Source: a bacterium (GTDB taxonomy: Bacteria; Chloroflexota; Chloroflexia; Chloroflexales; Kallotenuaceae). From it: 42,457 bases of DNA. Positions within the stretch are counted from its first letter, which is position 1, and each line of letters starts with the position of its first letter. The notes under the pieces were generated by a model. The model saw only the letters and a program-made list of their open reading frames with translations. It was not told the origin of the DNA and did no database searches. Shown here piece after piece: positions 6,501 to 39,475 of this stretch. The stretch lies in NCBI GenBank assembly GCA_016781505.1, contig JADDQF010000111.1:1-42457 (forward strand), written 5' to 3'. Made by a program: the position numbers and the translations under genes.

Positions 6501-8012
6501 ATGGCTGATGCACTCGCAGCGCTCAAGGAGCGGCTGGCCACGGTAATGGATCTCAACTATGCAGCCGCGGTTTTAGGCTGGGATCAGCGGACCTACATGC
6601 CGCCAGGTGGGGCAGTCGGGCGTGCGAACCAACTGGGAACATTGCGCAAACTTATTCACGAACACTTTACGGCGCCCGAGATTGGGCACCTGCTCGACGA
6701 GCTTGCGCCACTCGCCGCCGACGGGCAGAACGACAGCAATGACGCAGCGCTGGTGCGGCGCACTCGCCGCGATTATGACCAGGCGCGCAAGCTGCCGGCC
6801 GAGTTTGTGGCCGAATGGGCTCGCGCCCGCGCGATCAGCAACCAGGTGTGGGAGGAAGCCCGGCGCACCTCTGACTTTGCGCTGTTCCAGCCACATCTTG
6901 AAAAGCAGTTCGATTTCGCCAAACGCCAGGCCGAATATTTGGGCTACCAAGACCATCCCTATGACGCGCTGCTTGATCAATACGAGCCCGGAATGAAGAC
7001 AGCGCAGATCAAGACACTGTTTGCCGAGCTCAAGGCGGGAACGCTGCCGCTGTTGAAAGCCATAGTCAACAGCGGCGTGCAGGTTGACGATAGTCTCCTG
7101 CACCAGCCGTATGACGAAGCCAAGCAGGAACAGTTTGGCGTTGAAGTGACACGCGCATTCGGCTACGATTGGCAACGCGGCCGGCAGGACCGGACGGTTC
7201 ACCCCTTTTGCACCCATTTTGGGCGGGACGATGTCCGTATTACCACCCGCTTCTACCCCGACTTTCTTAGCGCGGCGCTTTTCGGTACCATGCACGAGGC
7301 AGGTCACGCTATGTACGAGCAAGGCGTCGATCCGGAACTGAGTCGCACCTTGCTCAGCCGTGGAGCATCGCTCGGCGTGCATGAATCACAATCTCGGATG
7401 TGGGAAAATTTGGTGGGCCGTAGTCGTCCCTTCTGGCAGGCTAATTTTGGCCGCTTGCAAGCATTGTTTCCCCAACAGCTGGGCAATGCGGACGTCGAGA
7501 TGTTCTACCGCGCGGTTAACAAAGTCCAGCCATCGTTGATTCGCGTTGAGTCGGACGAGCTAACCTACAATTTGCATATTATGTTACGTTTTGAGCTGGA
7601 AGCAGCCATACTTGAAGGCAACGTTCAGGTAGCCGATCTGGCCGAAGAGTGGCATAGCCGCATGGACGATATGCTTGGCGTTACGCCGCCAAACGATGCA
7701 CAGGGCGTGCTCCAAGACATGCACTGGAGCGGCGGCAGCGTCGGCTATTTTCCAACCTACACTCTGGGCAATGTGCTTTCCGTGCAGCTATGGGAGCGCG
7801 CACTGGCGGCTCATCCTACGATTCCTGAGGAGATTGGGCGCAACGAGTATGGCACGTTGCTGCAGTGGCTGCGGGACAATGTGCACCGCTACGGCCGAAA
7901 ATACGAGCCCAATGAGCTAATCGAGCGCGTTACCGGCGAATCGCTGAACGTCCAACCATACATGAACTATCTACGAACCAAGTTTGGGGACATCTACGGC
8001 GTGGCGGTGTAA
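6501..8012 (+). CDS. M32-family metallocarboxypeptidase (second paralogue)
   Basis: 503 residues. HEAGH is at 265-269, HESQSRMWEN follows about 30 residues later, then IRVESDELTYNLH, all hallmarks of M32 zinc carboxypeptidases. The ATG start has AGGAGG 6 nt upstream. No export signal. It parallels the copy at 994 along its whole length (same YWDQ/GWDQ-type N-terminus, same VLQD-HW motif), with clear divergence in the loop after HEAGH (VDPELSRTL versus IRMDFDGTP). That divergence may alter substrate choice. It sits behind the MFS gene in a probable operon and ends at the convergent hairpin at 8019. Confidence 0.94.
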   Translation: MADALAALKERLATVMDLNYAAAVLGWDQRTYMPPGGAVGRANQLGTLRKLIHEHFTAPEIGHLLDELAPLAADGQNDSNDAALVRRTRRDYDQARKLPAEFVAEWARARAISNQVWEEARRTSDFALFQPHLEKQFDFAKRQAEYLGYQDHPYDALLDQYEPGMKTAQIKTLFAELKAGTLPLLKAIVNSGVQVDDSLLHQPYDEAKQEQFGVEVTRAFGYDWQRGRQDRTVHPFCTHFGRDDVRITTRFYPDFLSAALFGTMHEAGHAMYEQGVDPELSRTLLSRGASLGVHESQSRMWENLVGRSRPFWQANFGRLQALFPQQLGNADVEMFYRAVNKVQPSLIRVESDELTYNLHIMLRFELEAAILEGNVQVADLAEEWHSRMDDMLGVTPPNDAQGVLQDMHWSGGSVGYFPTYTLGNVLSVQLWERALAAHPTIPEEIGRNEYGTLLQWLRDNVHRYGRKYEPNELIERVTGESLNVQPYMNYLRTKFGDIYGVAV

Positions 8013-8086: not shown

Positions 8087-8482
8087 TTATGGCTGCAGCG
8101 CATGTGTGTGTGCCTGCAGCCAGGCTTTGACCTCGTCTACATCATTCCGGCCCAGCACAATCCCTTTGGTGAAGGCCGACGCTTCCTCGTGCGAAACCAC
8201 TAGCTGCCAGCCATTGCGGCGCAAAAACTCGCGCACTCCCAGCATCGCTATCCGCTTATTGCCGTCGTAAAAGGGATGATTTCGGATCAGCAGGGTAAGC
8301 AGCGTGGCGGCTTTGTCCCACAGCAAGGGGTAGAGCTCCTGGCCAAAGACGACCTGCCGCGGTGCGGCAAGCGCCGACTGCAGCCCATTTAGATTCATAA
8401 CGTCGAACTGCTCACGCAGCTCAGCCGCGAGCTTGGTCCGAATTTGCAGCATGTCAAATTGCGATAAATAATTAATCGCCAT
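8087..8482 (-). CDS. doc: Doc-type Fic protein, distal copy
   Basis: 131 residues. The Fic/Doc core motif is H69-PFYDGNKR-77, matching the Doc variant (Lys in the place of the second Gly of canonical HxFx(D/E)GNGR). The preceding helices (LQSALAAP, FGQELYPLLWDKAATLL) are typical of death-on-curing proteins. In P1 Doc this fold phosphorylates EF-Tu and stops translation; whether this copy is toxic is inference. The start ATG lies inside the 3' end of the upstream doc gene (11-nt overlap), so translation is coupled. It is the last gene of the minus-strand cassette. An alternative is a chromosomal Doc-like protein with a non-toxin role. Confidence 0.88.
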   Translation of the reverse strand: MAINYLSQFDMLQIRTKLAAELREQFDVMNLNGLQSALAAPRQVVFGQELYPLLWDKAATLLTLLIRNHPFYDGNKRIAMLGVREFLRRNGWQLVVSHEEASAFTKGIVLGRNDVDEVKAWLQAHTHALQP

Positions 8483-8882
8483 CCACCACTAACCGTTTCC
8501 CGATCCACTCGGCAATGTCGCTCTGGTAGGCATCAGACGCAGCGGCCATGGTGAACTCGTAAAGGGCTTCCTGGTCCGCCATTAACCGTGCTCGGTTGCG
8601 CTCCAAATACGACAACAACCCGACGAGTGCAACCCGCTTGTTGCCGTCCGAAAAGCCATGTGCCCGTGCCAGACGAAAAAATAACGCCGCGGCTTTGGAC
8701 GGTAGGTCGGGATATAAATCCTCGCCAAACATCGACACATCTGGAGCAGCCAGGGCGCCCTCAAGCTTGCCGAAGCCGTGCTCCGTCACCCCGCGCATCC
8801 CGCCGAAGGTCTCGATCAAGAGCTCATGGATCAGCAACACCTCGGTCAGGGTCAGTGATGTAGTTGGGGGAGTAGCGGTCAT
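8472..8882 (-). CDS. doc: Doc-type Fic protein, proximal copy
   Basis: 136 residues. The core motif is H75-GFSDGNKR-83, with the family helices LEGALAAP, FGEDLYPDLPSKAAALF before it. The N-terminus TLTEVLLIHELLIETFGG matches the usual start of Doc-family proteins. It is diverged from the neighbouring Doc at 8087, so the tandem pair is an old duplication or two independent acquisitions. Its ATG overlaps the stop of the upstream small gene as ATGA, the classic antitoxin-toxin junction, and its own end overlaps the next doc by 11 nt. Predicted role: kinase-type toxin acting in the cytoplasm on the translation machinery, by family analogy. Confidence 0.9.
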   Translation of the reverse strand: MTATPPTTSLTLTEVLLIHELLIETFGGMRGVTEHGFGKLEGALAAPDVSMFGEDLYPDLPSKAAALFFRLARAHGFSDGNKRVALVGLLSYLERNRARLMADQEALYEFTMAAASDAYQSDIAEWIGKRLVVDGD

Positions 8883-9106
8883 GCTAATCGACGCAGCACA
8901 TCGGCGTGCTCGGCTAACATTTTGCGAATACGCGCCACCAGTGTGGGATCGACATCGGGCAGCGACTGCAGCACCAGCCGGCCATCGTCCATCTGCTCAA
9001 CCGATACCAGCAGGGCGTTGGCGCCGCGCTCATGCAGCCAGGCGCTGAGGGTAGGCGGAACATCATTGGCCGGTAAAACTAAAACATCAGGGAGCGTTCG
9101 TTCCAT
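8879..9106 (-). CDS. Small protein, candidate antitoxin for the Doc pair
   Basis: 75 residues from ATG 9106. I do not recognise the family; it lacks an obvious Phd/AbrB N-terminus. The N-terminal half is beta-like (DVLVLPANDVPP, ANALLVSVEQMDDGRLVLQSLP) and the last 25 residues form a charged amphipathic helix (TLVARIRKMLAEHADVLRRL), the kind of C-terminal helix that in Phd-like antitoxins covers a Doc groove. Its TGA stop overlaps the ATG of doc by four bases. There is no ribosome site; instead a TGC-TACAAT box ends 8 nt before the ATG, so the message may be nearly leaderless. The antitoxin role is inferred from size and position only. A start 54 nt upstream is possible but would lie above the -10 box. 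Confidence 0.6.
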   Translation of the reverse strand: MERTLPDVLVLPANDVPPTLSAWLHERGANALLVSVEQMDDGRLVLQSLPDVDPTLVARIRKMLAEHADVLRRLA

Positions 9107-9114
9107 GGTGGTAG

Positions 9115-9123
9115 ATTGTAGCA
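9115..9123 (-). promoter_or_regulatory. Extended -10 promoter driving the small gene/doc/doc unit
   Basis: On the minus strand, TGC followed by TACAAT (9120-9115) is an extended -10 element ending 8 nt before the ATG at 9106. No good -35 is seen, as expected for extended -10 promoters. Initiation would fall at or next to the start codon, giving a leaderless or nearly leaderless mRNA and an independent promoter inside the cassette. Confidence 0.45.
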
Positions 9124-9191
9124 AGCTCTGCGCCGCAAAGTAGTGCTTACGTCCCAACAACCGAAGCGGGCAGTAGCTCTGCTTGCAACAA

Positions 9192-10844
9192 TTATGTCAA
9201 TAAGATTGAACGGATCAGCTCATCGAGGGCTGTAGTTTGTCCGGGCAGTAGCGGCAGTGCTCCCACCTGATCGGCTGTGGCCAACGCCCTGGTTCCAGGA
9301 AACAACAAGTAGGCTCCCAGGGTCGCGCGGGCGGCACCGACACCGATCGCGCTGCGATACGCATAGGCATCGTCGAGCGCATCCTGGGGTATGCTGCCAT
9401 CCGCAGCCACGCGATATTTGGCATCGAAAACCAGCACCCGTGCCTCACCTCCGGGCCGAACCACCTCAACCGCAATGTCGGGAATGCGCACATATGGATC
9501 GAGCGATCCTAAACGCTTGGTCGAGGTAGGCTGGGGCTCAAACCGCCGTTGATACCAGACCACAAGTCGGGTTTGGTTTGGCAGTCGCAGTTCCAGCAGC
9601 GGTTGGTGGTGTTGTAAGCGTACCGTTAATCTGGTTTGGGTCGGCTGCTTTGCGTTCGGCACCGCCTCAACCAGCTGTTGTGCCGCTACCTCGCCATGGG
9701 GCAACAGCGTCTGGACGACCTGCAGCACACACCACTGCTCATACAGGGTGGGCAGATCGTGGATCGGCAGCCACAAGGCCGGCAGCTCAACGGCGCTCAA
9801 CGGCGTTGAGCGTAAGGCCTGATACAGCGCAAAAAGCCGCCGATAGCGCGGCTCTCGCCGCATTAATTGCGTCGGCCCATGCAGCGTCACCTGTTCGCCG
9901 ACACCCGCTAGCCATGGCACGGCTAACGCTTGGCGTAACCTTCGCAGCGCCTCCTGGCATCCTTCCAGCCAGGCTTGCATGGTTGCTGCGGCCGCCAGGC
10001 TGTCAACCAGCTCGGCATTGCGCTCACGACGCTGCAGCTCATGGCGCGTCAACTCTCGTACGTGCCCAACCCGCCATTGCAGGCCGTGCAACACCTGCTG
10101 GAGTACACGGTGCTCAACGATATCGTGCGTGGCGACAGAGCGTGGAGTTGGCACTAAGCGTGGAAGTGGCCCCCCCCGTCGCTGGGCAGGTGGGCGAAGC
10201 GCGGCTTGCAAAGCCGGCAGCACATCTTCCGCCACATCGTCTAGCGTGGTGCGCGGAAGAGCAGCCAGAACACTTGGATCTAGCCGCTCGAGCTGACCCA
10301 ACTGCGTACTGCCCTGCTTAGCGATCAGCTGTTGCTGCGGACGTGCACCGATCTGCTGCACCAATTTGAGTGCTTCGGCCACATGACCTTGAACCAGTGT
10401 GTGGTATTCCTCGACCAAAGTTTGCGGCAGTGTCGGTTGGAGGACGGCGCCTTGCTGGCCGCCATGGATGGCATACACAATCGCACGCGCGTCGCGCTGA
10501 ATCGCTGCGAGCAAGGCCTCGTAGCATTCGATGTCCAGCTTACGCGGCACAATTCGCAGCCGAAGTGTTTCACTGATACGCGTACCGTCGCCATGACGCA
10601 GCTCCATGCTCGCCTGGTACTGGCCGACGGCATGTTGCGGATTCCAGTGCCAGCGCCACAGCGTATCCCCCAACATCGTGGCTGGCGGTCCCAACGGCAC
10701 ATTGTTCACGCTTAGTGTTGCGCCCACAATGCCGGGCTGAGCTGGACATGTAATTTCAAGCGCTTGCCATTCAAACCAATCTGCGACAACCATGCCCGTA
10801 GAAATCGGCTGCCCATTGATCGTGATTGTGTCGAGAATGCTCAT
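9192..10844 (-). CDS. DUF2357 / PD-(D/E)XK nuclease (McrC-like), orphan
   Basis: 550 residues. The C-terminal quarter carries a readable PD-(D/E)XK core: P455-D456 in RIPDIAVEV, then D474-A-K476 in LVFDAKYR. It resembles the PDDEXK_7 (DUF524) family, with a DUF2357-like beta-rich N-terminus (about 1-100) and a long helical middle. Relatives usually pair with an McrB-like AAA+ GTPase as a modification-dependent restriction or anti-phage module. No AAA+ gene lies beside it here. It is transcribed toward, and 85 nt upstream of, the small gene/doc/doc unit, which suggests one accessory locus. The ATG start has no strong ribosome site; a TACAAT box lies near 10868-10873. Family assignment from motif memory; the middle region was not assigned. 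Confidence 0.75.
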   Translation of the reverse strand: MSILDTITINGQPISTGMVVADWFEWQALEITCPAQPGIVGATLSVNNVPLGPPATMLGDTLWRWHWNPQHAVGQYQASMELRHGDGTRISETLRLRIVPRKLDIECYEALLAAIQRDARAIVYAIHGGQQGAVLQPTLPQTLVEEYHTLVQGHVAEALKLVQQIGARPQQQLIAKQGSTQLGQLERLDPSVLAALPRTTLDDVAEDVLPALQAALRPPAQRRGGPLPRLVPTPRSVATHDIVEHRVLQQVLHGLQWRVGHVRELTRHELQRRERNAELVDSLAAAATMQAWLEGCQEALRRLRQALAVPWLAGVGEQVTLHGPTQLMRREPRYRRLFALYQALRSTPLSAVELPALWLPIHDLPTLYEQWCVLQVVQTLLPHGEVAAQQLVEAVPNAKQPTQTRLTVRLQHHQPLLELRLPNQTRLVVWYQRRFEPQPTSTKRLGSLDPYVRIPDIAVEVVRPGGEARVLVFDAKYRVAADGSIPQDALDDAYAYRSAIGVGAARATLGAYLLFPGTRALATADQVGALPLLPGQTTALDELIRSILLT

Positions 10845-38629: not shown

Positions 38630-39475
38630 TTACAAGTGGGTGTTGGACTCTTCGACCTCGCGTAAAAATTCGAGCACAACGCGGTTAAATTCGTCGGGAC
38701 GCTCCATGTTTGGCATGTGCGCTGTGCCGGCGATGACAATCTTGCGCGCCTCGGGGATTGTGCGGGCCATCGTCTCGCCTGCTTCGATCACACCTGGCTC
38801 GTCCAGAGCGCCGACGATCACCAATGTCGGCACTTGAAGCTCACCCAAACGCCCTACTGCGGGCGGCTCCAACGGTTGATTGATCCCGCCCAAGTTAGCA
38901 GCGTCGCTTCTTAAAGCAATCAGATTCATTGCACGCACGCGGTCACGGATTGCCGCGGGCACTTGATAGGGCGAGCGCTTTCGGCCATCCACCCAGATTT
39001 GCACCTCAAGCTCGGATGCACGCTCGAGATCTCCTGCATCAAAGGCGGCAATAACCTCATTCAACTGTCGCGGTGGCTCACCGGTAAACTGTTAGCCGCT
39101 CGGCGTGCTGCACACTGGAATAAGCGCGGCAGCCATCTCCGGATGCTCCAAGGCAAAGTCGATGATCGTGGTCCCGCCCTGCGAACAGCCAAGCAGATAC
39201 GCCTGCCCGATACCCAGAAACCGCAGTAGCTCGAACAAATCGTGCCGGTGCGCGAACGGACCCGCCACCATCGGCGTATCGCCAAAGCCTCGCATGTCGT
39301 AGCGAATCACCTGATAGTGCTCGGCAAACACCGACCATTGATCGTCCCACATCCGCCGGTCGGCGATGCCGGCATGCACCAACACCAACGGATGACCGTG
39401 TCCCGCCACCTCATAAACAAAGCGCGTCCCATTGATGTCGGCTGTGCCCACTCTGCTTCGTGGCTGCTCGCTCAC
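38630..39475 (-). pseudogene. Alpha/beta hydrolase interrupted by one in-frame stop
   Basis: The frame 39475-38630 reads as one complete alpha/beta-hydrolase of about 280 codons except for a TAA at 39094-39092 (codon 128, context GGC TAA CAG). The reading continues in the same frame on both sides with no length change. Part 1 has VLVHAGIADRRMWDDQ, the nucleophile elbow GCSQGG (S98) and the TPMVAGPFAHRHDL lid. Part 2 has the acid in IVGALDEPG and the His in GTAHMPNMERP. All three triad residues survive but sit on opposite sides of the stop. Either a fresh nonsense mutation or a sequencing error. Function when intact: hydrolase of unknown substrate. Confidence 0.85.

Follow-up and report, generated by a model that had tools for sequence, protein, structure and literature searches.

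Introduction

The closest described relatives of the genes treated here are McrBC systems of the NxD type and Phd-Doc toxin-antitoxin modules. In the NxD clade an Ig-like domain is reported on McrC, a methyltransferase-associated branch is mentioned and deferred to a later paper, and no McrB GTPase of this type has been characterised so far (PMC11090510). In Phd-Doc, the C-terminal helix of Phd binds Doc in P1 (E. coli) as well as in E. faecalis, and the Phd of E. faecalis, non-canonical in its N-terminal domain, binds a pair of Docs as a dimer (PMC13034048). We investigated a window of 42,457 nucleotides (nt), the whole stretch of DNA that was analysed (contig JADDQF010000111.1 of assembly GCA_016781505.1; Kallotenuaceae, Chloroflexales), in which an McrC-like nuclease gene stands head to tail with a small open reading frame (ORF) and two doc genes. 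A preliminary description had read this array as an orphan nuclease linked to a toxin-antitoxin unit, the two being either neighbours in a small defence island or parts of a composite anti-phage module. We consider it likely that two separate modules lie side by side here, namely the nuclease of a split NxD-type McrBC, with its GTPase encoded elsewhere in the genome, and an operon of one antitoxin and two Docs.

Identity of the four genes

The array comprises the following genes, placed as the preliminary description had them:

9192-10844, minus strand, McrC-like nuclease, 550 amino acids (aa), PF09823 and PF04411
8879-9106 (ATG at 9106, stop at 8879), minus strand, small ORF, probable antitoxin, 75 aa, upstream of doc1
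8472-8882, minus strand, doc1, 136 aa, TIGR01550 at 44.1 bits, HGFSDGNKR (H75)
8087-8482, minus strand, doc2, 131 aa, TIGR01550 at 55.9 bits, HPFYDGNKR (H69)

The small ORF and doc1 overlap by 4 nt (ATGA) and doc1 and doc2 by 11 nt, both as claimed earlier; 85 nt separate the nuclease from the small ORF. Among close pairs, some of them near saturation at their synonymous positions, dN/dS amounts to 0-0.17 for the small ORF, 0.03-0.28 for doc1, 0.03-0.12 for doc2 and 0.11 for the nuclease, and this purifying selection indicates that all four are real genes. A scan for promoters and terminators gave nothing beyond the shuffled expectation.

Pfam matches of the nuclease to PDDEXK_7 (E 3.4e-18) and DUF2357 (E 2.9e-15) are both above cut-off, and together with the structural matches they establish the fusion of DUF2357 to a PD-(D/E)XK nuclease by which McrC is recognised. 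An Ig-like beta-sandwich (residues ~1-102) is followed by the helical DUF2357 region (~105-383) and the PD-(D/E)XK domain (~385-548); D456, D474 and K476, the catalytic D...D-x-K, are invariant across 18 aligned homologues. On comparison of the AlphaFold2 model (pLDDT 83) by VIA-align, the top four rows were all McrC chains of McrBC complexes (6ut6_G, 6ut7_G, 6hz4_M and 6ut5_G), with Z values of 9.1-10.1 over 171-279 aligned residues (272 for 6ut6_G, at Z 10.1) and an rmsd of 5-12 that is expectable for a multi-domain protein. The Foldseek match list was filled by Ig-like domains. Alignment of the nuclease profile with E. coli McrC by hhalign was limited to the DAKY region (P 0.004), and PADLOC PDC-M26B matched weakly (E 0.1).

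The tight array of this nuclease with two Docs could likewise be confirmed. Both Docs match Pfam Fic (E 2e-14 and 1e-14) and exceed the 38.65-bit cut-off of TIGR01550, the NCBIfam Doc model; in the PDB, doc1 matches Doc 3k33 (E 3.5e-8) and doc2 the E. faecalis Doc 9vzc (E 1.8e-14). The motif HxFxDGNKR, corresponding to the catalytic motif of Doc as written in PMC13034048, is intact in every cassette Doc aligned. Matches of the docs to PADLOC PDC-S23, S04, S05 and M59B reflect the Fic domain only and were set aside.

The small ORF, doc1 and doc2

The distribution of the cassette was followed in 60 genomes of relatives, the window's own genome (G000) included. The small ORF occurs in 19 of them, in four families (the window's own, f1; that of Herpetosiphon, f2; that of Roseiflexus, f3; and Chloroflexaceae, f4), and is always followed by doc1, in most genomes with a 4-nt overlap. 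In 18 of these 19 cassettes doc2 is present as well, a departure from the one toxin per antitoxin of Phd-Doc. Outside the order, a search of 400 Chloroflexota genomes returned no small ORF but one marginal match over 36 residues. Cassette DOC1 forms one clade in the Doc trees (87/87) and DOC2 another (99/97), each across families; the two are therefore old paralogues kept together, not the outcome of a recent duplication.

The small ORF encodes an N-terminal domain of ~50 residues and a C-terminal helix (DPTLVARIRKMLAEHADVLRRLA). A Phd/YefM-family antitoxin, as found upstream of the toxin in Phd-Doc, was not recognised in it. Its matches to PF20916 (E 1e-4) and DUF6907 (E 0.14) are below the Pfam cut-offs and were treated as chance, as were its profile matches to Hook3. 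It is nevertheless most likely the antitoxin, because of its position and of weak profile similarity: its profile resembles that of a small protein preceding a lysS-linked Doc-like protein in the order (hhalign P 7e-4), and its C-terminal helix is weakly like that of an RHH protein before a single Doc (P 0.035). The earlier reading of the small ORF and the docs as a toxin-antitoxin unit is supported in this respect. The antitoxin-bound Doc of E. faecalis is a dimer (PMC13034048); by analogy, it would be reasonable to picture Doc1 and Doc2 as a pair in the grip of the small-ORF antitoxin.

Alternatively, the small ORF might not be the antitoxin of both Docs, one of which (probably doc2) would have turned into an inhibitor or regulator within an antitoxin-toxin-modulator unit. 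Such a role would suit the cassette of G036, in which doc1 alone follows the small ORF, and the absence from doc2 of the GGMxG segment, which is kept by doc1 and conserved in other Docs. All residues of the doc2 catalytic motif are kept in 14 aligned copies, however, and the gene is under purifying selection, neither of which a pure binding role would need, and we hold this alternative to be somewhat unlikely.

In the order we also observed a Doc-like protein whose motif is degenerate, e.g. RPFLSGNEATAL in place of HxFxDxNKR (L112 at G000:C67:20675-21049, and L115-L119). In several families it adjoins lysS-like genes and a conserved partner of 70-80 residues. It looks like a Doc pair that has been retired or repurposed, with a partner resembling the small ORF.

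Neighbourhood of nuclease and cassette

The order nuclease-small ORF-doc1-doc2 is found on the same strand in all six genomes of the window's own family, which represent three genera and include one (G004) that was deposited as a metagenome-assembled genome of the Herpetosiphonaceae. The spacing between nuclease and cassette is 85, 34, 45 and 5 nt, with a 17-nt overlap in G004 and an insertion of ~2 kb in G003; the small ORF of G005 may begin a little further in. Nuclease and cassette stand at separate loci in each genome of the other families that has both, and the neighbours of the nuclease, named by reading their sequences, are for example RlmN, CorA, an amidase, RdgB or a peptidase. The earlier proposal of a composite four-gene module is thus unsupported as a general entity: with the adjacency confined to one family, the order is a family trait and not a defining architecture. 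A functional coupling of nuclease and cassette is unsupported, with nothing beyond proximity pointing to it. Nor could the small defence island be substantiated, as the window neighbours examined (M32 peptidase, MFS transporter, amidase, response regulator and esterase) are housekeeping genes.

These data also bear on a composite abortive-infection module, in which the nuclease would sense or cut invading DNA and the small ORF and docs would form a second, suicidal layer. Tight spacing and the same-strand order throughout three genera, kept in G004 even though the flanking genes differ, make it conceivable, within the window's own family only. We regard it as quite improbable, given the separate loci elsewhere, the absence of the cassette from 28 of the 47 nuclease-bearing relatives, the GTPase partner that the nuclease has in trans, and the insertion in G003, which leaves the cassette intact.

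A GTPase encoded elsewhere in the genome

McrB is missing from the neighbourhood, as the preliminary description stated, but not from the genome. The GTPase part of E. coli McrB (L138) served as query in place of AAA_5, which was unspecific and matched every genome, and retrieved a 569-aa protein on a different contig of the window's genome (G000:C57:6496-8202; E 6e-7). The protein carries the Walker A motif GISGTGKT, the Walker B motif CLDELN and, in GTLNVDES, the McrB signature in the NxD form that PMC11090510 describes. Solved McrB GTPases come first when its family profile is compared with the PDB (6hz4, E 2e-7), and it matches PDC-M26A, a candidate component in PADLOC, at 1e-49. The genome of the window therefore holds an McrB-family GTPase, the second component expected of an McrBC system. 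A McrB DNA-binding domain was not recognisable in it.

The nuclease is present in 47 of the 60 relatives and in 21 of 23 genera, at one locus a genome. With only full-length family members counted, nuclease and GTPase are both present in 46 relatives and both missing in 11, three being discordant (Fisher p 3e-9, not corrected for phylogeny). Nine genomes of genus g5 have neither gene, and its sole holder, G035, has both. The nuclease tree shows one clade for each of the four families, which indicates vertical descent; no homologue was found in another Chloroflexota class in 110 genomes.

Within the order, the two genes are unlinked. Neither the nuclease nor the small ORF flanks any of 54 GTPase loci within 7 kb or up to the contig end, and no GTPase was found around the nuclease loci that were fetched, so that the single operon of mcrB and mcrC is absent here. 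In Herpetosiphon aurantiacus DSM 785 (G021; CP000875.1) the nuclease is located at ~5.31 Mb, spanning about 5306875-5308371, the GTPase at ~1.02 Mb, spanning 1024243-1025862, and the cassette at ~0.69 Mb. As this species is cultured and has all three loci on one chromosome, the pairing is directly testable.

Stronger evidence for the pairing than co-occurrence is gene linkage in plasmid relatives. In plasmid records with a nuclease homologue, a homologous GTPase gene lies directly upstream in eight of eight cases: Deinococcus gobiensis, Deinococcus sp. QL22, Azospirillum, Caballeronia, Skermanella, Salinibacter, Thiospirochaeta and Candidatus Chlorohelix, the last from another order of Chloroflexota and the others from other phyla. 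Four of these pairs were aligned, and all have NxD and an intact PD...(D/E)xK or a close variant. A DNA methyltransferase stands alongside in three of four annotated regions and a Vsr-type gene in two of four, which fits the NxD branch of PMC11090510. The nuclease is accordingly no orphan. What the preliminary description had named as evidence against its own reading, a nuclease independent of the cassette and a co-evolving McrB gene elsewhere, is largely what was found.

That the nuclease works alone as a housekeeping nuclease, its co-occurrence with the GTPase reflecting mere shared vertical inheritance, would agree with two near-universal, unlinked genes with few independent losses and with a nuclease lacking a full GTPase in G051, but the paired neighbours in all eight plasmid relatives, the retained DUF2357 region and McrC-like fold, and the joint absence and joint retention of both genes in g5 make it equally improbable as the composite module.

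Three side observations concern the GTPase. Directly upstream of it, in eight among the loci inspected (L209:5654-6361, L210, L211, L212, L215, L219, L221 and L224), lies a conserved protein of 221-237 residues without Pfam match, which might belong to the split McrBC as its third component. G043 (L139, G043:C133) has a second McrB-like GTPase of 722 aa with the NxxD-type signature GTMNTADRS and, immediately behind it, an McrC-like gene coding for 400 aa; an ordinary linked McrBC thus coexists with the split pair in one genome. Further, a version of the order's GTPase with 65% identity is encoded on a contig labelled Candidatus Gracilibacteria (L282; JAAUTF010000142.1), which is probably mis-binned.

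Proposed mechanism

In the scheme that we favour, in which protein contacts, targets, toxicity and co-transcription are predictions, the nuclease would act as the McrC subunit of an NxD-type McrBC with its GTPase encoded at another locus. As in McrBC, by analogy, the GTPase would form a ring and recognise its target through its own N-terminal domain, while the DUF2357 stalk of the nuclease would stimulate the GTPase and the nuclease would then cut. Within the order, the two unlinked genes are inherited vertically. A type II toxin-antitoxin operon would be made up of the small ORF, doc1 and doc2, the 75-residue antitoxin gripping the Doc toxins by its C-terminal helix. As putative kinase-type Fic enzymes, the Docs would be expected to phosphorylate EF-Tu once released; Doc1 and Doc2, ancient paralogues with intact catalytic motifs, would be co-produced, and a single antitoxin would probably neutralise both. 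The McrC gene has come to sit just upstream of the Doc operon in the window's own family and is probably co-transcribed with it, for which no functional link would be needed.

A bolder version appears improbable to us. Here, McrBC would have been split in Chloroflexales-type bacteria and domesticated to serve the cell in a function that is near-universal and vertically inherited; in one family, the nuclease gene would also have been co-transcriptionally wired to a two-toxin operon whose Doc1-Doc2 heterodimer is held by one antitoxin.

Several points weigh against two separate modules as set out above. The order kept in all six genomes of the window's own family, mostly with tight spacing, could mean more than neighbourhood. 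Among the discordant relatives, G025 and G052 have the GTPase alone and G051 the nuclease alone; all three are drafts, in which gaps are indistinguishable from losses. A paired co-loss test on the UvrB tree comprised three independent pairs, too few for significance, and with so few independent changes co-occurrence alone would not settle the pairing. The antitoxin assignment draws on gene position and a weak profile similarity: the small ORF, already described as unrecognised, has no family in Pfam or NCBIfam and no match to Phd, AbrB or RHH antitoxins, and its model (pLDDT 75) gave nothing above noise and no convincing fold match in Foldseek and VIA-align.

Further features of the window

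At 946-2499 and 6501-8012, ~4 kb apart, the window has two genes that resemble each other and carboxypeptidase Taq (M32), the second being confirmed by Pfam. On the minus strand, the consecutive ORFs at 39092-39475 and 38630-39064 resemble two halves of one alpha/beta hydrolase, which suggests a frameshift, a nonsense mutation or a fault in the assembly (38630-39475).

Comparison with known systems

McrBC censuses largely pair neighbouring genes and can easily count the members of an unlinked pair as two orphans; the whole order discussed here seems to carry such a pair. A literature search of incomplete coverage found neither an unlinked McrBC nor a pair of Docs sharing one antitoxin; what is new here is the split McrBC, together with an operon of one antitoxin and two Docs.

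The NxD branch of McrBC that is associated with DNA methyltransferases (Bell et al. 2024, PMC11090510; PADLOC PDC-M26) is similar in its NxD GTPase and in an McrC with Ig-like domain, DUF2357 and PD-(D/E)XK nuclease. The plasmid relatives resemble it further, with two adjacent genes and the methyltransferase next door in three of the four annotated regions. In contrast, GTPase and nuclease genes of this order are unlinked and vertically inherited, and no methyltransferase was recognised beside either of them in the neighbourhoods examined. With McrBC of E. coli K-12 the nuclease shares the McrC fold (6ut6_G, Z 10.1) and the GTPase its McrB homology (E 6e-7). The differences are NxD in place of NxxD, no recognisable McrB DNA-binding domain, an extra N-terminal Ig-like domain on the nuclease and genes that do not form one operon. 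CoCoNuT likewise combines an NxD GTPase with McrC homologues bearing an N-terminal Ig-like domain (PMC11090510), whereas the GTPase found here has only 569 aa and the active site of the nuclease is intact.

Similar to Phd-Doc of P1 and E. faecalis (PMC13034048), the cassette encodes Docs with HxFx(D/N)(A/G)NKR and a small overlapping upstream gene whose product could bind Doc by a C-terminal helix. It differs in having two different Docs per antitoxin gene and no detectable Phd domain, and in being confined to one order in the searches made. The double-Doc operon raises the question of one antitoxin gene serving two ancient, still active Doc paralogues.

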